64,000 nucleotides of DNA from Candidatus Competibacteraceae bacterium (GCA_014879445.1 JACSSC010000034.1:1-64000); one strand, 5' to 3'. Shown: positions 32,772 through 46,126, numbered from the stretch's first letter. Notes: a model not told the origin generated them from the letters alone. Made by a program: numbers and translations.

Positions 32772-34307
32772 ATGATTAAAACTTATGGATCGGCTGTTCA
32801 TGGCGTAAACGCCATTCGCATAACCATAGAAACCAATATGGCCCCCGGATTGAACTTTTATATGGTGGGATTGCCCGACAACGCCGTAAAAGAAAGTCAG
32901 CGAAGAGTGGAGGCCGCCATTCGCAATAACGGATTTCGAATTCCTGGTAAAAAAATTACTATAAATCTGGCCCCAGCTGATATTAGAAAAGAAGGGTCAG
33001 CATACGACCTGCCAATCGCTATAGGTATAATTGCTGCCGGAGAACAAATGCAAGATACATTGTTGGCCGATTATATTTTGATGGGTGAATTATCGCTCGA
33101 CGGAGAAATTCGACCTATAAAAGGAGCTTTGCCCATCGCCATTCAAGCCAGGCAGGATAAAATGAAAGGCATCATCTTACCTAAGGAAAATGCCAATGAA
33201 GCTGCAATTGTTAGTGGTATCGAAGTGTTTGGTGTAAAAACATTGAAAGAAGTCGTGGAATTTTTAAACGGGGATTTGATATTAACACCCGAACAACATG
33301 ATACCCGCGAATCTTTCAAGTATCATAGTGGGATTTTCCCTTTTGATTTTAGCGAGGTGAAGGGACAAGAGAACATCAAAAGGGCACTCGAAATAGCAGC
33401 AGCCGGCGGCCATAATGCTATTTTGATTGGCCCGCCAGGCGCCGGCAAAACAATGCTGGCTAAACGGTTGCCGACTATACTTCCCCCTCTCTCCCTACAC
33501 GAAGCACTCGAAACCACTAAAATTCATTCGGTGGCTGGCAAATTAGGCAAACATAAGGGCTTGATTACAATGCGGCCTTTCAGATCTCCGCATCACACAA
33601 TCAGTGATGTGGCCCTCGTGGGCGGAGGAGTCAATCCTCAACCGGGCGAAATTTCATTGTCACATAATGGGGTTTTGTTTTTGGATGAATTACCCGAATT
33701 TAAACGATCTGTATTAGAAGTACTCAGACAACCTCTTGAAGACCGTGTTGTTTCTATTTCTAGAGCTAGATTTAGTGTTGAATATCCGGCCAGCTTTATG
33801 TTGATTGCTTCCATGAATCCATGCCCCTGCGGAAACTACAATCACCCCGATAAAGATTGCGTTTGCGCCCCAGGCACTGTGCAACGCTATCTGAACAAAA
33901 TCTCAGGCCCATTACTCGATCGCATTGACCTGCATGTTGAAGTTACCCCTGTGGCTTTTGACGAATTATCTCAAACCCGACCTGCCGAAAGCAGCGAATC
34001 TATTCGACAAAGAGTGGTTGACGCTCGTGAAATTCAAAAACAACGATTTGCTGGTCAAGATGGTATTTATGCCAATGCACAAATGTCAACTCGTCAACTC
34101 CGAGATGTTTGTAATATTAGCAACGCTTCGCAAACTTTACTAAAAACGGCAATGGAAAAACTAAAACTTTCGGCACGTGCATATGACCGAATTTTAAAAG
34201 TTGCTCGAACCATTGCAGATTTAGCCAAAAGCGAAGATATCAAACCCGAACATGTCGCCGAAGCTATTCAATATCGCAGCTTGGACAGAGAAAATTGGGC
34301 CGGATAA
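32772..34307 (+). CDS. YifB/ComM family Mg chelatase-like AAA ATPase
   Basis: A 511-residue ATPase. The N-terminal ChlI-like domain ([35 protein letters not shown]) precedes an AAA core with Walker [20 protein letters not shown] (about 220-238), Walker [10 protein letters not shown] and sensor [11 protein letters not shown]. The C-terminal domain is the usual Mg-chelatase extension. In Vibrio and Acinetobacter the ComM orthologue drives branch migration during natural transformation; the same activity is plausible here, but competence is not shown. The cysteine cluster CPCGN...CVCAPG is conserved in the family. Confidence 0.93.
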
Positions 34308-36412: not shown

Positions 36413-38734
36413 TTATTGAACAATAAGGCGCTTAGTAGTGCGTCCGGTTGAGGTGCTCACTTCAACCAAATAAACACCAGAAGGCAGCGCTACGGGCTGA
36501 ACAAAAGTGTTATTGCCCTGTTGAACAGCTTGCCGTCGGCTTAAAATTTCCCTTCCGGTCATATCAATCACACGGATGTTTGCTTGGTCGTTTGTCTGGC
36601 TATATACATTTATCGAAAATGCGTCAATCGTGGGATTAGGGTATAGTGTAAAATGCACACTTTGTTCGAATTGCTCAACAGAGGTTCCTCCTGATGTATT
36701 GCAAGGAAGTGTTGGATTGCTAATATAAGTCATTGTTTTAAAGTCAATATAACAAACCCAATCGGGATGGTCCACAAATGGATTCCTGTTTCCCTGCAAG
36801 CTGTCAAGATAATCGTTGCGTGCAATGTCAACTCGTGTTGGAGGATAGGCAAAATGCCAATCTTTTAACACTTGCTGATTCTGAGGATAGTTGATATTAT
36901 AGGAAACGCCTGCAGCACAAACCTCTCCTATCGGGGCATCTAGATTCCATGTGTTTCCATTTACGGTATTATAACACACCGTCATGTAAAACATGGCCCG
37001 AGCTGCGGCACCCTTATGTTCATCACGGGGCTCGTACACCCTGTTGCCGGCTGTATCTAAACCCATAACACCTTGTTGGTAAGAAATAATGGGTGAAACT
37101 ACCTCGCCAAGCGGATAATTACAGCGAGCTTCGTTTACGTTGCTTTGCAATGCTGGATACAGATGGTGCTGGTCGTTATACTCTGGTTTTTCTGGATTGT
37201 CGGCAGGAAAAGTGGGCATCCAGCTATGTGGAAAAGTATGTTCCCGGCTTGTTCCGGTAGCGCCAAAATCAAAGGGCTGATTAAATAAGATTGGAGCGCC
37301 GCTATAAGAGCAGTTAAACACCTTGTTGAACGTGTTGGCTCCTTGCACCACAAAGGTATCACGTGTTACAAAACCATCAATCATTGTGTTGCGGTAGTTG
37401 CTGTAAAATACAGAAGAGTGTGGGTTAATCACAGCGTGAAGCTGCGAGATAAAAGATGTTGAAAGGGGGTCAACCGTGCTGTATTCTGTAGGAGAAACCA
37501 TGGTTGGCGGAGACGTGACTGAGCCGGTAAGTAAGGAGGTTGTTTGATAAGAAACCGCACTACTTCCTCCGGCATTATATGGCACTACTGCAAAATGATA
37601 GGTTGTGTTGGCTAACACCCATCGTGGCCAAAAAGTAGTTGTGGATGCGCCACCCTTGCCATTATAAACCACTTTGGCATTGCCTATGGTTTGGCCCACT
37701 ATATAATTGGTTCCGTTGGAAGGTGTTGTGCTGACCGGTGCGCCTTCGCTACGCAATACCAAGTATCCGCCGTAATAGTCAACGGTTGTATTGGTAAAAG
37801 ACACAATCGTGCGATATGTTTTATTAACAGGGAAGGTTAAATTAGTTGCAGCTCCGGGTGCTGTTGCATAATTTCCTCCTACAGCATACAGGTTAACAAC
37901 ATAAATAGCATCTCCATAGGCGTCGTCCGATGTAATCGTAAGTTGGGCCGTTCGTGTTCCTGCCCCACCGGGTGTAAACTGTAATGTAAGTGCCTCATTA
38001 TTTTGTGACGAAATGATCAATGGAAATGAAGGAGAAACAATAGAAAAATCTGACGCATTCGTGCCACTAACAGAAATGTTAGCCACCGTGAGATTTGATA
38101 AGCTGGCATTTCGCATTACAAAATTCATAGGTGTAGAAACGGCAACGGGACTACTTACAGGCGATGAATAGCCCCCATTAATTATCACCAGCGAGTTTTC
38201 TTCAACTTTTATTTTAGGATTTGTTAGCAATGGCTCACGTACTTTGATATCATCAATGGCAATGTTGTACCCTGATGTTTTAGAGGAAAAGAAAAAACGA
38301 ACGTATCTGACATTGGGGTCTGTAACTAAAACACTATCATAATTACAAGCAGGAGATAATGGAATTTGTGACCCAGAATAGGTTTTCAGCGTATTCCAAG
38401 ACGACCCGTTTGTTGATTCTTGTACTGTAAATGTTCCCTGCCATGGGCTGCTTGTTCCTGTTCCAATTATGCTGTATGATACAGTGCCTGGTTGTGTTGA
38501 TGTGTTTACGACAATGCTTTCATTGGTAGCATCTAATCTGGCCGCTGCCGTACCCTCACACACTTGCTGAGAGCTAGTATAAAATTGTGATGTTCCACTA
38601 ATCTGCCAGTTATGCGTCCACCCAACTGGCGGTTGCCCGTCACAATTCCATGAGGTAGGAATCGGCGTTTGTGCCAATAAAGTAAATGCTGGAGCCAAGA
38701 GAAGCCCCAATAGAAGAGATTTTTTTTGTTTCAT
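36413..38734 (-). CDS. T9SS-secreted endonuclease I family nuclease
   Basis: A 773-residue secreted nuclease. From ATG 38734 the signal peptide is MKQKKSLLLGLLLAPAFTL and beyond. A beta domain (about 25-170) and HYDIN/ASPM-like Ig domains (about 185-300) precede an endonuclease I (NucM/EndA-type) domain from about 430 to 690. Its active-site block REHTFPHSWMPTF and NDQHHLYPALQSNVNEAR (the N-x-x-R and His general base region) and the terminal block DSLQGNRNPFVDHP are intact. A type A T9SS sorting domain ends the protein (HFTLYPNPTIDAFSIN onward). It should cut DNA outside the cell. It is the last gene of the four-gene operon 36413-43029. Confidence 0.9.
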   Translation of the reverse strand: MKQKKSLLLGLLLAPAFTLLAQTPIPTSWNCDGQPPVGWTHNWQISGTSQFYTSSQQVCEGTAAARLDATNESIVVNTSTQPGTVSYSIIGTGTSSPWQGTFTVQESTNGSSWNTLKTYSGSQIPLSPACNYDSVLVTDPNVRYVRFFFSSKTSGYNIAIDDIKVREPLLTNPKIKVEENSLVIINGGYSSPVSSPVAVSTPMNFVMRNASLSNLTVANISVSGTNASDFSIVSPSFPLIISSQNNEALTLQFTPGGAGTRTAQLTITSDDAYGDAIYVVNLYAVGGNYATAPGAATNLTFPVNKTYRTIVSFTNTTVDYYGGYLVLRSEGAPVSTTPSNGTNYIVGQTIGNAKVVYNGKGGASTTTFWPRWVLANTTYHFAVVPYNAGGSSAVSYQTTSLLTGSVTSPPTMVSPTEYSTVDPLSTSFISQLHAVINPHSSVFYSNYRNTMIDGFVTRDTFVVQGANTFNKVFNCSYSGAPILFNQPFDFGATGTSREHTFPHSWMPTFPADNPEKPEYNDQHHLYPALQSNVNEARCNYPLGEVVSPIISYQQGVMGLDTAGNRVYEPRDEHKGAAARAMFYMTVCYNTVNGNTWNLDAPIGEVCAAGVSYNINYPQNQQVLKDWHFAYPPTRVDIARNDYLDSLQGNRNPFVDHPDWVCYIDFKTMTYISNPTLPCNTSGGTSVEQFEQSVHFTLYPNPTIDAFSINVYSQTNDQANIRVIDMTGREILSRRQAVQQGNNTFVQPVALPSGVYLVEVSTSTGRTTKRLIVQ

Positions 38735-38753
38735 GATTTCAATATTCAAGTAA

Positions 38754-39182
38754 TTATAATCTATTTGCTTGGATTAAAAGGGAGTCGGCAAATCGTTCAA
38801 GCTGCAATTCCTGTTGATTGAGTGCTCGTATAAAAAATCGTTGTTGTTTAAAAACTTTGGTAAAGTTAGGAATATTTATGTTGGCGTCTATAAAAGCAAT
38901 CTCGTCATCTTTGATGGTAAAATTGAGTTTTGCCGAGTCGGGAGTTGTGGGATTTAAATCAAGATATTTAAACCATAGTTTACATGTGGCGGTATAGGCA
39001 TCTTCGCATGGCTGAAAAGAAAGAAACTGTGGAACTGAATCGGGTTGTATGATGGTGGTGTCGCCTTGATAAAATAGTATCTGCCACTCCCCTTTTAGCT
39101 TATCTACGTTTTGTTGTGATGGGTTACAAGCACAAAGCGCGAATAAAATTAAAAGAAACGGTATAATCTGTTTGAATTGCAT
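38754..39182 (-). CDS. Small lipoprotein in the nuclease/TonB operon
   Basis: A 142-residue lipoprotein with lipobox ALCAC (Cys19) and a mature domain beginning KLKGEWQILFYQGDT, a lipocalin-like pattern. The body has alternating strands and ends QLERFADSLLIQANRL. It lies between the TonB-dependent receptor (9 bp upstream) and the nuclease gene (about 19 bp downstream), so it is likely a partner of one of them, for example a surface or periplasmic ligand-binding component. No ligand can be named. Confidence 0.68.
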   Translation of the reverse strand: MQFKQIIPFLLILFALCACNPSQQNVDKLKGEWQILFYQGDTTIIQPDSVPQFLSFQPCEDAYTATCKLWFKYLDLNPTTPDSAKLNFTIKDDEIAFIDANINIPNFTKVFKQQRFFIRALNQQELQLERFADSLLIQANRL

Positions 39183-39191
39183 AATAGATTC

Positions 39192-41945
39192 TTAAAAAGT
39201 TATCTGTAGCGACCCCATATATCTGAATCCCAAACCAATATTAACTGCAGCACCTCCGGCGCTGAAAGTATTGGGTACAATACCCCCATCAAAAGCATCG
39301 GCAATGTAAAAATGATTGGTAAGATTCATGAAATGTGCTCGTATATCAAATTTGATTTTTTTCGCCTTGAAACCATATCCCATATTAAGATTCATTAAGT
39401 AGAAATCGGGAATACGCCATGGCTGTCTTCCGGCATGAGGGGCAAAACCGGTCTGCGGATTCACTTTATAGCTGGATGCATTATAGTTGGCATAAAAATG
39501 TGTAAAGAAAATAACCTCCGGTGCGATGTATAATCCTTTGATGGGCATTATACGAATTATTGCCGCATATTGATGCTGGGGCTGGTCGCCAACTTTCACA
39601 TCACGCAGGTCAATTTGGTATAATCCATTAGGAACTTGATTCCCCAACTCGTCAAGCGTTTGAGCTGCGCCAATACTGTTCCAGTGCCAGTCGCCAATCG
39701 AAATGCTTCCTTCTAGTGATAATTGCTTAATCGGCTTATATACAAAATCTAACTCAAGACCCATGTGCACAGCTTCCAGTCCATTTACGTTAACCGATAC
39801 AAAGTTGCCATTTTGGTCAGGAAGGGTTGTGCGTTCTGGTTTGTTCATCCACCACGTATAATATCCGTTCAGGTTCAATGCAAATTTTTTATATTGTATG
39901 GTGTATCCGAGCTCAAAGGATGCCAGATTCTCGTTTTGTGCATCGTTTACTCTATCGTTGGAATTAAGCACTAAGAAAGTCATGTAGGGTGCTCTAGAAA
40001 AATAGCCAACATTAAAAAACACATTATGGCTTTTATGTAGTTTGAAGTTCATCCCTCCTTTTACTGTATAGCCCATTCGACCAAAATATCCTGACTGATT
40101 ATATTCCAATTCTTTTGTGTCGCGTGTATATATATTTCCGTTGTGCGAAATAGTGTCGTAATATCCTATATTAAAAGTAGTATCTGCTAAATGCAGTTGT
40201 TTTTTTGCAAATAGATTGGTCTGGTTATATCCGGTTACCGCACCGCTCATGTTTACAAAACTACTGAATACCGGATGTTTGTATTCAAGCATAACAAATC
40301 CACCGCCCCATAAAATATCTCTTCTGAGATTTTGGCGAATACGATCTCCCTCTACTACATACCCTTTTGAGGCGATGTTGGGATCTGGGTTCTGCACAGA
40401 AAGGTCGCCCCCTAACAAATCATAAACGGTACTAAATACGCTCCCCCTAAAATACCTGAAATCAATACCGCCTGATAAATTCAAACGATTATTAATAGCA
40501 TAATCAAACGTGCTTAAAGCACCAATCCAGGTATGCTCATTGTGGTTTTTTCTAATGAAATTTGATGATTTTTGCACTGTATCGTTAGAGCCGGGCAAAA
40601 TATATATATTAAACGGACTATACGCATTTCCGTCATAAATGGCCTGCAGATTCAATTGTCCGGTACTATCTAGCGCCACCGACGAAGTATTGTCGAGTTG
40701 TGTGCCGCCTCCAATGCCCAAAGAAGCATACACAATGGCAGAAACATAGAATTTGTCAGAAACTTTTATAAAGTCCTTTAAGAAAAACAATGGTTTATGA
40801 TAATGATTTTGTGTACTGCTTAGCTTTTCAAGTGGGGCGTCAATTCCATTTTGATCAGGGCGGGTTCTTCTAACATATCCCCACCCTTGGTTATACCGCC
40901 AGTTGCGCTCTTTAACTGAGGCGTTGGTATCAACCCCCAATGATAGTGCATAGTTTTTATCATATGCCTCAATACTAAAATCATACAAATAAGAGCGCTG
41001 ATCGCTCCATTGTGGTGCCCCAAATACAGTAAAGCTGAGTGTATGGTTTTTGATTTGTTTATTTACCTTGAGATAATATGAAAACCATGTGGTGGTGGTT
41101 CCATCCACCCACCCTTCATTATATTTAAATGCCAACGCTCCTTGTATGTTCCAGTTGCCTTTTAGCTTTCCCGAAGATGCGCTGAATGTGGTTTGGGCAT
41201 TGTTTCTGTTTCCATAATCTTGTCGTATTGAAAAAACGCGATCCATATCAATGCCTTGGGTAATCACATTAATGGAGCCGCCAACTGACGGGATGGCTAG
41301 CTTAGACGCCCCTAGCCCACGCTGAACTTGCATTAATCGGGTATTAACTCCCAACCCTTGCCAGTTGCTCCAATATACCCGGCCATTGTGCATATCATTC
41401 ATGGGAACTCCATCTACCAAAACCAATACATTTTGTTGGCTGAATCCACGAATACGCACTTCTGCCTGGCCATCGGTGCCTTGTCGCTGACTTACATATG
41501 TTCCAGGTGTTACATTAAGTAACATCGGCAAATCTTGTGAACCAAGCCGTTCGCGTATTTGCTCCGCTGTTACATTCGAAAAAGCAACCGGGGTTTCGCG
41601 GGGTTTTGCTAAGTCTGACACAACCTCTATCTCGTTTAACATAGTAGGCGAAAGTGAAAAATCCCAAACCTGCTTATTGTTGTTGACAATTATTTTTTCG
41701 CTTTGTGATTGATAACTGACATAGGAAACGGATAAGGTATATTCGCCATTGGGCAGCTTAATTTCGTAATATCCATCAAAGTCAGTTGCCACTCCTTTGC
41801 CTTCAGCCCATACAACGGTTGCGCCCGGAAGGGGTTCTCGGGTGGTGGCATCTACAATTTTCCCTGATATTGTGCCTTGCTGAGCATATATACCTTGACA
41901 CAAAACACCAAGAAAACACAATAGCGAAACAATATGGTGGCGCAT
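39192..41945 (-). CDS. TonB-dependent receptor with carboxypeptidase-like N-terminal domain
   Basis: A 917-residue outer-membrane receptor. Signal peptide to about residue 21; a CarboxypepD-regulatory-like beta domain (GTISGKIVDATTREPLPGA, about 24-100); a plug domain with the TonB-box-proximal RIRGFSQQNVLVLVDGVPM (about 164-182) and GGSINVITQG; then a 22-strand barrel ending in the aromatic terminal strand GFRYMGSLQITF. The substrate is not encoded in the sequence. No SusD partner follows, unlike a polysaccharide utilisation locus. Context with a secreted DNase and a lamin-tail protein makes a nucleic-acid product a candidate ligand (inference). Confidence 0.9.
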   Translation of the reverse strand: MRHHIVSLLCFLGVLCQGIYAQQGTISGKIVDATTREPLPGATVVWAEGKGVATDFDGYYEIKLPNGEYTLSVSYVSYQSQSEKIIVNNNKQVWDFSLSPTMLNEIEVVSDLAKPRETPVAFSNVTAEQIRERLGSQDLPMLLNVTPGTYVSQRQGTDGQAEVRIRGFSQQNVLVLVDGVPMNDMHNGRVYWSNWQGLGVNTRLMQVQRGLGASKLAIPSVGGSINVITQGIDMDRVFSIRQDYGNRNNAQTTFSASSGKLKGNWNIQGALAFKYNEGWVDGTTTTWFSYYLKVNKQIKNHTLSFTVFGAPQWSDQRSYLYDFSIEAYDKNYALSLGVDTNASVKERNWRYNQGWGYVRRTRPDQNGIDAPLEKLSSTQNHYHKPLFFLKDFIKVSDKFYVSAIVYASLGIGGGTQLDNTSSVALDSTGQLNLQAIYDGNAYSPFNIYILPGSNDTVQKSSNFIRKNHNEHTWIGALSTFDYAINNRLNLSGGIDFRYFRGSVFSTVYDLLGGDLSVQNPDPNIASKGYVVEGDRIRQNLRRDILWGGGFVMLEYKHPVFSSFVNMSGAVTGYNQTNLFAKKQLHLADTTFNIGYYDTISHNGNIYTRDTKELEYNQSGYFGRMGYTVKGGMNFKLHKSHNVFFNVGYFSRAPYMTFLVLNSNDRVNDAQNENLASFELGYTIQYKKFALNLNGYYTWWMNKPERTTLPDQNGNFVSVNVNGLEAVHMGLELDFVYKPIKQLSLEGSISIGDWHWNSIGAAQTLDELGNQVPNGLYQIDLRDVKVGDQPQHQYAAIIRIMPIKGLYIAPEVIFFTHFYANYNASSYKVNPQTGFAPHAGRQPWRIPDFYLMNLNMGYGFKAKKIKFDIRAHFMNLTNHFYIADAFDGGIVPNTFSAGGAAVNIGLGFRYMGSLQITF

Positions 41946-41955
41946 GAAGGTCGGC

Positions 41956-43029
41956 TTATTTAATAACCAGTTTTCGGGTCTTTTTCAACCCGTTGTCAAA
42001 GATGGTTTGAACCATATAAATTCCCGTAGCCAATCCTGTAAGCGGAATTTGTATTTGAGTAGAAGGTGATGCCACATATTCCCAAACAACAGCGCCTGTA
42101 AGCGTTATCAAGTCAACTCGCTGCATTGGTAGAGTGGAAGACAACATTACCCAGTCGCTGGCAGGATTAGGATATAGCACATATTTGATTTGTGATATGG
42201 CCTCTTCTTCATTTGAAAATAAAAATGAACAATGACACGTATGCACGCCCAAACTGTCAAAAGTGTTTTTGGGTATAGAGTCCCATTCAACTGAAGGGTT
42301 GAAGCCGGAAGGCACAACAGGAGGGCCTAATTGACCTGAAATTGGGTTTGTCGTTATTCCTTTTAGCACCGTAGGTTTGCGAATCATGGTATGATCTTGT
42401 GTCCAATATTGTTTGAAGTAGGGCCCCTGAATCGTTGAATTATATGTTTCGGGCATGGCAAAAAATGGAGAAAGAGCCGTCCATCCGGCAGTAGGGTTAA
42501 ACGATCCTGAGCTGTTAAGTGGTTGTTCGCCAATACAGCCAAAAATATCAACCGATACCCAACCGCTACCGGTGTTTTTTTGAAGTTCTACGGCGTCGTC
42601 GCCGTTAAAGCAAACCGTACGCGGCTGAGGTGGCACCACACTTGGGCTACAATCTGTAGTAAAAAATGTGTCTATTCGGGCTAATAAATCGGGCCAAGTA
42701 TTATTATTAGGGTCGGGGTCTGTTTGAACATTAATTCCAATCACTACCACATCAAATGGCGCAACCGTAATAGACGCCGGAAAAACAGTTACTTTGGTAG
42801 GAAAAACATCCATCACATCTGTGGGTGGTATAGGTGGCACACTCCCATTATCCCAGCGTATCAAACGATAATTTTCCAAACTAATCGGGTAGGCCGTAGG
42901 GTTATAAATTTCAATGGCTTTGTTATGCCCCGAGCCCTCAACGTATTCTGAGATAAACAAATCTGAACAATCCTGAGCAAAAATGCCAATACTTGCTGTC
43001 AAAAAAAATATTACGAATAAAGCTCTCAT
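41956..43029 (-). CDS. Lamin-tail-domain protein with T9SS sorting domain
   Basis: A 357-residue secreted protein from ATG 43029 (signal peptide MRALFVIFFLTASIGIFA). The first 130 residues form a lamin tail domain (LFISEYVEGSGHNKAIEIYN), a fold that recurs in secreted bacterial nucleases and in surface proteins and may bind nucleic acid or protein. A central segment with GDDAVELQKNTGSGWVSVDI completes the domain. A type A T9SS domain starts at about 285 (VLYPNPASDWVMLS). No catalytic residues were seen. It is the first gene of the operon, with the TonB receptor 10 bp downstream. Confidence 0.8.
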   Translation of the reverse strand: MRALFVIFFLTASIGIFAQDCSDLFISEYVEGSGHNKAIEIYNPTAYPISLENYRLIRWDNGSVPPIPPTDVMDVFPTKVTVFPASITVAPFDVVVIGINVQTDPDPNNNTWPDLLARIDTFFTTDCSPSVVPPQPRTVCFNGDDAVELQKNTGSGWVSVDIFGCIGEQPLNSSGSFNPTAGWTALSPFFAMPETYNSTIQGPYFKQYWTQDHTMIRKPTVLKGITTNPISGQLGPPVVPSGFNPSVEWDSIPKNTFDSLGVHTCHCSFLFSNEEEAISQIKYVLYPNPASDWVMLSSTLPMQRVDLITLTGAVVWEYVASPSTQIQIPLTGLATGIYMVQTIFDNGLKKTRKLVIK

Positions 43030-44173: not shown

Positions 44174-46126
44174 TTATTGCGCCCTGACCAATCTAAATGT
44201 GGTGCTGCTAACCGGCGTATCCCACTCCAGCAAATAAATTCCGGATGGCAATTCGTTAACCATAATCTCCGTTTGCCCTAATGAAAAATCTACTTGCTTG
44301 TGCCACAATATTTGCCCATGCAGGTTTCGCAATATAAGTTCACAGATTCCTTGGCCTGGCTGCCATGTCAAGCGTGCCACATTCTCTGATACAGGATTAG
44401 GATATAGAATTGCTGTTGTCGTTTCAGAATTTTCAAGCGCAGTAATAAAAATAAGTGACCCAACAATGTCGTAATTAGGATTAAACTTCATGGAGTCAAC
44501 TGATGCTGGTAGCGTTACCCAATACTCTTGCCCATTGCTGGTGTTTGAAAACCATATCAATGTATCTTGCCCACCGCACCAAAACTGTATGGGCACCGGT
44601 AGTTCAAAAAAACTAACGGATGGATGAGTTGGCATCTGATTAAGCTTTATATATACAGTATTTGATGGATATTGCGACCAGTTAATCCAATAAATAGGAT
44701 GCCCCTGTCCTGCATACCAGTCATCAAAAAAATAGGTTAAATCAACGCCACTGGTGGCTTCTACATGTGTTTTAAAATCTTCCGTTGATGCAAATCCAAA
44801 TCGAAGATTGGGGTCGTGCAAATAATTGTATGTGCCTTGAAAAAATGCGGTGTCACCGATTGTCATTCGCAACATATGAAGCAACATTGCTCCTTTCGAA
44901 TATGAAAGTCGTCCGTCAAAAATGCGCCATACATCAGTTGTGTCATCTACCTTCACAGATCCCCAGGGTACACTCATAATATAATTAACTTGATTTTTCT
45001 TCCAAATAGGCCAATACAAATGGGGATAATTGTGCTCATAAACCATACCGGTTAGATATGTTGCAAATCCTTCATTAATCCAAATATCTTCCCAGGTTTT
45101 ACAGGTAATGGTATTGCCAAACCACTGATGGGCTAATTCGTGGGCTATGATTTCATACCCAAAATGCCCCATCGAAGTCATTGTGGTATGTTCCATCCCT
45201 CCACCAAATTCACAATGCATATGTCCGTACTTTTCATTATAAAAAGGATAAAGGCCAAAGCGTTGATTAAACATGGGCATCATTTCTTGTATCCGTTGTG
45301 TTTCGAGTTGAACATTAACCAAATCTTCAGGATATACATAATTCAACACTTCGATAGAGTCGGTTGGAGAATAGAGAATATAATCGGAATATACAGCATA
45401 ATTACTAACAGCAAATGCAACAAGATAGGCCGGAATTTTATATTTATGCTCCCATTGATAATATGCCCACGGCCCCGATACATATTCGCTGGTAAGTATG
45501 CCGTTGGCTCCAGCTCGGTATTGTGAGGGTGTACGAATCAACATGTGAACGGAATCAATTTTGTCGTTTAGCGATTGTTTACAAGGCCACCAATGTTTAG
45601 CACCGTATGGCTCTGATAACGTCCAAGCCACAGGTACGCCATTATGTGATGAGGTGTCAAAACCTCCCAACGCTCCTGATGGTGGCGGCTCTCCTTGATA
45701 ATATACTATAACTTCATAATATTGGGATGGAGTAAGGGTGAACGGCAAATCAATTTCAACACCATCATTTGTTGTTTGATTAAATACCATCTGCTGATTC
45801 TGAAAAATGACTGAATCAACCGTAAGCTGGTATGACAAGTCGAAAACAATTTGGTTTACGCCGGATGTGATAGGTTTGAATCCCGACAATACACTTCCTT
45901 TGATATAGTAAACGCCCGGATCCACTTCAAGATATAATGAATGAAAAACCAAATCATAGTTAATGGGGACAACCGATGCCGCATCCAATGATGATGATAG
46001 TAGCTTTTTTGTTTCGGCACAACTAATATCTTCTAATGTTGATGGTAGATACACTTCTTGCTGTGCGTTTAATATAAATGATAAAAGGGTAAATGATAAA
46101 ATAAAAAAACCGCGCTTCTGTTTCAT
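44174..46126 (-). CDS. M1 family aminopeptidase with T9SS sorting domain
   Basis: A 650-residue secreted zinc metallopeptidase. Signal peptide to about residue 21; the N-terminal M1 beta domain; the zinc site HELAHQWFGN with the third ligand in WINEGFATY; and the substrate-side motif as GGGMEHTTMTS, a variant of GxMEN in which the terminal Asn is replaced by His-Thr. The N-terminal amine-binding Glu is retained. A type A T9SS sorting domain ends it (ILYPNPVSENVARL). It should remove N-terminal residues from extracellular peptides. dnaG is 2 bp upstream on the same strand; this is an odd pairing, but the spacing suggests cotranscription. Confidence 0.92.
   Translation of the reverse strand: MKQKRGFFILSFTLLSFILNAQQEVYLPSTLEDISCAETKKLLSSSLDAASVVPINYDLVFHSLYLEVDPGVYYIKGSVLSGFKPITSGVNQIVFDLSYQLTVDSVIFQNQQMVFNQTTNDGVEIDLPFTLTPSQYYEVIVYYQGEPPPSGALGGFDTSSHNGVPVAWTLSEPYGAKHWWPCKQSLNDKIDSVHMLIRTPSQYRAGANGILTSEYVSGPWAYYQWEHKYKIPAYLVAFAVSNYAVYSDYILYSPTDSIEVLNYVYPEDLVNVQLETQRIQEMMPMFNQRFGLYPFYNEKYGHMHCEFGGGMEHTTMTSMGHFGYEIIAHELAHQWFGNTITCKTWEDIWINEGFATYLTGMVYEHNYPHLYWPIWKKNQVNYIMSVPWGSVKVDDTTDVWRIFDGRLSYSKGAMLLHMLRMTIGDTAFFQGTYNYLHDPNLRFGFASTEDFKTHVEATSGVDLTYFFDDWYAGQGHPIYWINWSQYPSNTVYIKLNQMPTHPSVSFFELPVPIQFWCGGQDTLIWFSNTSNGQEYWVTLPASVDSMKFNPNYDIVGSLIFITALENSETTTAILYPNPVSENVARLTWQPGQGICELILRNLHGQILWHKQVDFSLGQTEIMVNELPSGIYLLEWDTPVSSTTFRLVRAQ

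Follow-up and report, generated by a model that had tools for sequence, protein, structure and literature searches.

A lamin-tail protein, TonB-dependent receptor and secreted nuclease module in Bacteroidota as a candidate route for extracellular DNA

Introduction

How does extracellular DNA cross the outer membrane of Bacteroidota? To our knowledge, the route is not known for members of the phylum that have no competence pili. The main genetic lead that we found was one transposon screen in Riemerella anatipestifer, in which RA0C_RS04915, a TonB-dependent receptor (TBDR)-like outer-membrane protein, and RA0C_RS04920, a DUF5689 protein, were essential for natural transformation (PMC8459023). 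Both genes lie near comEC (RS04895) and recA (RS04870), and a YifB mutant of the same species transforms poorly (PMC8459023). The tonBA and tonBB mutants also transform poorly, and iron acquisition is impaired as well only in tonBB (PMC8383284).

The window, a 64,000-nucleotide stretch of DNA, contains a group of four genes that raises the same question. A first-pass annotation read it as an operon for the acquisition of extracellular DNA, encoding a lamin-tail domain (LTD) protein, a TBDR, a lipoprotein and a secreted endonuclease I. Our literature searches found no paper tying lamin-tail proteins, TonB receptors and endonuclease I together, and "DUF5689" was mentioned in a single paper. Here, the operon, its conservation and the relationships of its receptor were examined.

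Results

The operon and its products

The window belongs to a Bacteroidota-type genome of 2.69 Mb that is 100% complete. The four genes lie on the minus strand from 43029 to 36413, where the first-pass annotation had placed them, and are separated by gaps of 10, 9 and 19 bp; the last becomes 4 bp if a TTG start at 38749 is used. Beginning with the LTD gene, which is the operon's first, they are:

41956..43029, minus strand: LTD protein, 357 aa; Lamin Tail Domain (PF00932, E 5e-11) and Por_Secre_tail (PF18962, E 2e-8)
39192..41945, minus strand: TBDR, 917 aa, clade A; CarbopepD_reg_2 (PF13715), TonB plug (PF07715) and beta barrel
38754..39182, minus strand: small predicted lipoprotein, 142 aa; lipobox-like N-terminus LFALCAC
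36413..38734, minus strand: endonuclease I, 773 aa; Endonuclease_1 (PF04231, E 8e-30) and Por_Secre_tail (PF18962, E 5e-13)

The LTD protein and endonuclease I had been described as T9SS cargo, and both scored above cut-off with PF18962 and TIGR04183. The AlphaFold model of the LTD protein (mean pLDDT 82) contains a T9SS tail, which matched T9SS CTDs in structure, and a weakly matching lamin-like domain. Domain scans detected no recognisable nuclease domain of its own in this protein, and we propose it as a surface component with a putative DNA-holding role.

The endonuclease I is the sole member of its family in the genome. Its Endonuclease_1 domain scored 107.9 bits against a cut-off of 25 and covers about residues 496-657 of 773, with accessory domains N-terminal to it, where weak Cep192_D4/choice-of-anchor D matches were found, and the T9SS tail at the C-terminus. 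The enzyme has kept its catalytic-type motifs (SREHTFPHSW near residue 496 and DQHHLYPALQSNVNEARCN near 520), and DQHHLYPALQSNVNEARCN aligned with the solved nuclease 1oup. An initial, strict motif pattern for endonuclease I proved too narrow, matching only 26/52, and the sequences themselves were then read for the motifs.

A plug and beta-barrel fold was supported for the TBDR by PF07715 and by Foldseek matches to PqqU, YncD, FhuA and others (E down to 1e-31), and its AlphaFold model (mean pLDDT 81) has the canonical, generic TBDR fold. We propose that DNA, or fragments of it, cross the outer membrane through this receptor. Two possible clues to its ligand were discarded. The closest solved TBDR structures matched by sequence in the N-terminal and plug region only and by structure in the generic fold, and the charge of the receptor, considered as a sign of DNA transport, was not distinctive. 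Pfam and NCBIfam scans gave no match for the predicted lipoprotein, whose lipobox was read off the sequence. Past a polyprenyl synthetase-like gene upstream of the operon, a Peptidase M1 family protein (44174-46126, minus strand) carries a T9SS-like sorting tail just under the Pfam cut-off.

The LTD-TBDR-nuclease order is conserved

A match to the window TBDR was found in 21 of the 40 relatives searched, mostly as a single copy per genome, and its neighbours were usually the same LTD and endonuclease genes. The receptor was absent from one congener (99% complete). The lipoprotein, listed by the first-pass annotation as a component of the operon, falls outside the conserved core and is an accessory confined to the window's family and some lineages close to it.

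The sample was then 80 public loci with a clade A receptor (A loci), taken from GTDB genomes and scored with local profiles that were partly built from the same loci. The TBDR had the LTD gene as its immediate upstream neighbour in 75/77 testable loci, and a gene for a T9SS protein of a nuclease superfamily stood no more than three genes downstream in 58/67. The downstream enzyme was endonuclease I in 42 of these 58 and PLD-type in 16, the latter being assigned by family, as are the EEP-family proteins described below, so that not all need be DNases. In three further loci the nuclease-superfamily gene was upstream instead. The order recurs at 35-50% TBDR identity and in many families, which is more than chance. 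The co-conservation on which the first-pass annotation had staked its reading was therefore observed. Carriers are mostly uncultured Flavobacteriales, Bacteroidales, Marinilabiliales and Saprospiraceae, with Brumimicrobium oceani (locus L164), a cultured species, among the named ones.

Endonuclease I has two domain arrangements in A loci; in the Bacteroidales form, the nuclease domain is N-terminal and is followed by a weak OB-fold match. All three PLD-type proteins that were scanned carry DUF5689. Glycosyltransferase, amidohydrolase and MORN repeat genes recur as neighbours in Bacteroidales and were set aside as lineage context with no evident link. An apparent LTD-TBDR fusion (L134:1967-5923, a 1318-aa frame) was also rejected, as a second signal peptide lies mid-frame and a frameshift in the metagenome assembly is probable.

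The receptor is sister to a clade linked to transformation

One public locus (L114) has the order RecA, ComEC, carboxyl transferase, exported EEP-family protein, TBDR with PF13620, and a DUF5689+DUF5017 protein. This agrees with the order implied by the Riemerella locus tags, and on synteny and domain make-up we identify it as the probable RA0C_RS04915 locus. Its receptor clade is called B. Clade B receptors adjoin a DUF5689 gene in 21/22 loci and have an EEP-family gene nearby in 19/22, and they were present in 55/60 and 56/60 genomes of two families.

Full-length profile alignment joined the window TBDR to clade B over 836 columns (E 2e-100), at an A-B identity of 20-26%. In pairwise comparison it matched clade B along its full length, whereas the genome's other receptors matched mainly in the N-terminal part. 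A tree of 67 sequences gave support of 98 for A, 100 for B and 99 for A+B+C; these are SH-aLRT values from a quick search, with the window genome's other receptors entered as shortened sequences. The window receptor falls outside the closed clade B (100) and within clade A (98). Clade A is thus, by sequence, the sister of the clade that contains RA0C_RS04915. Group C receptors (L050, L054, L062, L063 and L065) are related to both, often share a genome with B and are without LTD and nuclease neighbours. Our comparisons turned up no orthologue of the receptor for which a siderophore or glycan is the established ligand; the first-pass annotation had named such an orthologue as contrary to its reading. 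The ligands of TBDRs change readily.

The A and B modules do not share a genome

Among 149 genomes of the class, A was found in 43, B in 27 and both in none, with 7.8 overlaps expected; the corresponding P of 3e-5 assumes independent genomes, which these are not. Group C does co-occur with B. Three families hold A and B in different members (f1, which is the window's, f3 and f20). Such a distribution is typical of one function in two versions, and the A module seems to replace, rather than accompany, the B module of TBDR, DUF5689 protein and, usually, exported EEP-family protein.

A genome from the window's own family (G008) provides a direct bridge between the two layouts. At L058, 5786-14547, a B receptor and DUF5689 gene are divergent from an EEP-family gene, which stands with a T9SS endonuclease I and a T9SS Calx-beta/OB-fold/DUF5689 protein.

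Discussion

The operon is best explained as a surface DNA-acquisition module in which the TBDR imports DNA or its fragments, a reading to which we give a probability of roughly two in three. It is strengthened by the constancy of the LTD gene (75/77) and of the nuclease (58/67), by the transformation locus in the sister clade and by the exclusion between A and B. The sister clade with RA0C_RS04915 (PMC8459023) provides independent support for the DNA import that the first-pass annotation had suggested. We also count in its favor the poor transformation of the Riemerella TonB mutants and the presence of both ComEC and DprA in the window genome. Across A and B loci the receptor stays constant while the fold of the enzyme changes (endonuclease I, PLD-type, EEP in B), as one would expect of modules whose common substrate is nucleic acid. 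Several observations count against a DNA module: the A-B identity is only 20-26%, DUF5689 is absent from the window genome, ComEC is much commoner than A plus B and is not near A loci, and a congener does without this TBDR. A 22-strand-type TBDR with a plug would also need to open widely for DNA, and nothing special was seen in the model. Finally, the PLD-type and EEP-family partners need not be DNases.

Under DNA acquisition, T9SS would place both of its cargo proteins on the cell surface, where the DNase would cut environmental DNA into ends or fragments and the LTD protein would hold it. With energy from TonB and the proton motive force, the TBDR would pull DNA or oligonucleotides across the outer membrane. 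DNA in the periplasm could then pass to ComEC and DprA as transforming DNA or be degraded for phosphorus and nucleosides, and both fates, transformation and nutrition, may apply.

The nutritional fate could be the only one, with the DNase releasing oligonucleotides or nucleotides that the TBDR imports as a source of phosphorus, carbon or nucleosides and with no role in transformation. This is itself one version of DNA acquisition, so its likelihood overlaps with that of the main reading; taken alone, it is plausible but short of an even chance. Five A loci (L158, L164, L169, L188 and L056) carry a split 5'-nucleotidase (5_nucleotid_C + Metallophos) downstream of the nuclease, in the same orientation and at spacings of -1 to 15 bp; the gene is divergent in a sixth A locus and is found near one B locus. 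The window operon and most A loci lack such genes, however. Phosphate depletion induces the Flavobacterium johnsoniae enzymes EndA1 and EndA2, which combine fn3, LTD and endonuclease I (PMC8115612), but they are orphans with no receptor alongside. Bacteroidota have also been implicated in the degradation of DNA in sediments (PMC8289736), whereas the experimental tie of the sister receptor clade is to transformation and not nutrition (PMC8459023).

Another possible explanation is that DNA is cleared without being imported: the DNase and LTD protein would degrade DNA of biofilm matrix, traps, phage or competitors, and the TBDR would import a metal, haem, vitamin or the like, or would only signal. 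TBDRs of such a fold are for the most part transporters of iron complexes, vitamin B12 or comparable ligands, and shared transcription is no proof of a shared substrate. However, even over large distances the receptor retains partners from nuclease superfamilies, with several unrelated folds among them, and the sister clade keeps another such partner in 19/22 loci and includes a locus needed for DNA uptake (PMC8459023). We consider clearing unlikely. Least probable by far is a variant polysaccharide utilisation locus, in which the secreted proteins would capture a glycan for the TBDR to import. The general layout is similar, and a CarboxypepD_reg-like domain also occurs in SusC-type receptors. 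The first-pass annotation had noted this resemblance together with the lack of SusD and glycosidases, and our domain scans of the four proteins indeed found neither, leaving a likeness of layout only, while the co-conserved partners are nuclease-superfamily genes.

Among the known systems closest to the operon is the Riemerella locus. The two share full-length homologous receptors of sister clades, exported partner proteins and a nuclease-superfamily gene close by (of the EEP family in Riemerella), and DUF5689 domains occur in A-locus nucleases of other species. They differ in gene order and in the partners, since the window has an LTD protein and a T9SS endonuclease I in place of the DUF5689 and EEP-family proteins; DUF5689, found in one of the two essential Riemerella genes, had no match in the window genome. 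The operon appears to be a new variant, sister to a receptor locus that is itself of a little-known kind. EndA1 and EndA2 are likewise exported Bacteroidota proteins with endonuclease I and lamin-tail domains (PMC8115612), but there both domains are in one orphan protein, whereas here separate genes surround a TBDR. In the DNA-degradation loci of Candidatus Izemoplasma, nuclease, lamin-tail and transporter genes are also grouped for the use of extracellular DNA (PMC8289736). These bacteria differ in phylum and cell envelope, with ABC transporters in place of an outer-membrane TBDR, and the loci are analogous without being homologous as a whole. SusCD-type PUL/PUS loci also group a TBDR with a lipoprotein and a degradative enzyme that is secreted; the window differs in having no SusD, glycosidase or phosphatase, and the conserved partner is a nuclease.

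A second, sister receptor with a fixed association to a surface DNase and an LTD protein turns the Riemerella lead into a general, testable hypothesis, and it would name a likely receptor for the turnover of extracellular DNA by Bacteroidota. A more specific proposal, which we put forward tentatively and rate below an even chance, is that the A module works in many uncultured Bacteroidota as an uptake machine that brings DNA across the outer membrane for natural transformation without a pilus. It would be built from a TBDR and T9SS surface proteins, with the nuclease as a DNA-entry nuclease and with A and B as interchangeable versions. ComEC was found in 141/149 genomes, far more often than A plus B, so A and B cannot be its sole outer-membrane partners, and no ComEC gene was seen adjacent to A loci. 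A gene for a YifB/ComM-type Mg-chelatase-like AAA ATPase lies two genes from the operon (window 32772-34307, plus strand). It was dropped as a hint of competence, as among the loci read its adjacency to the operon is confined to the window's genus.
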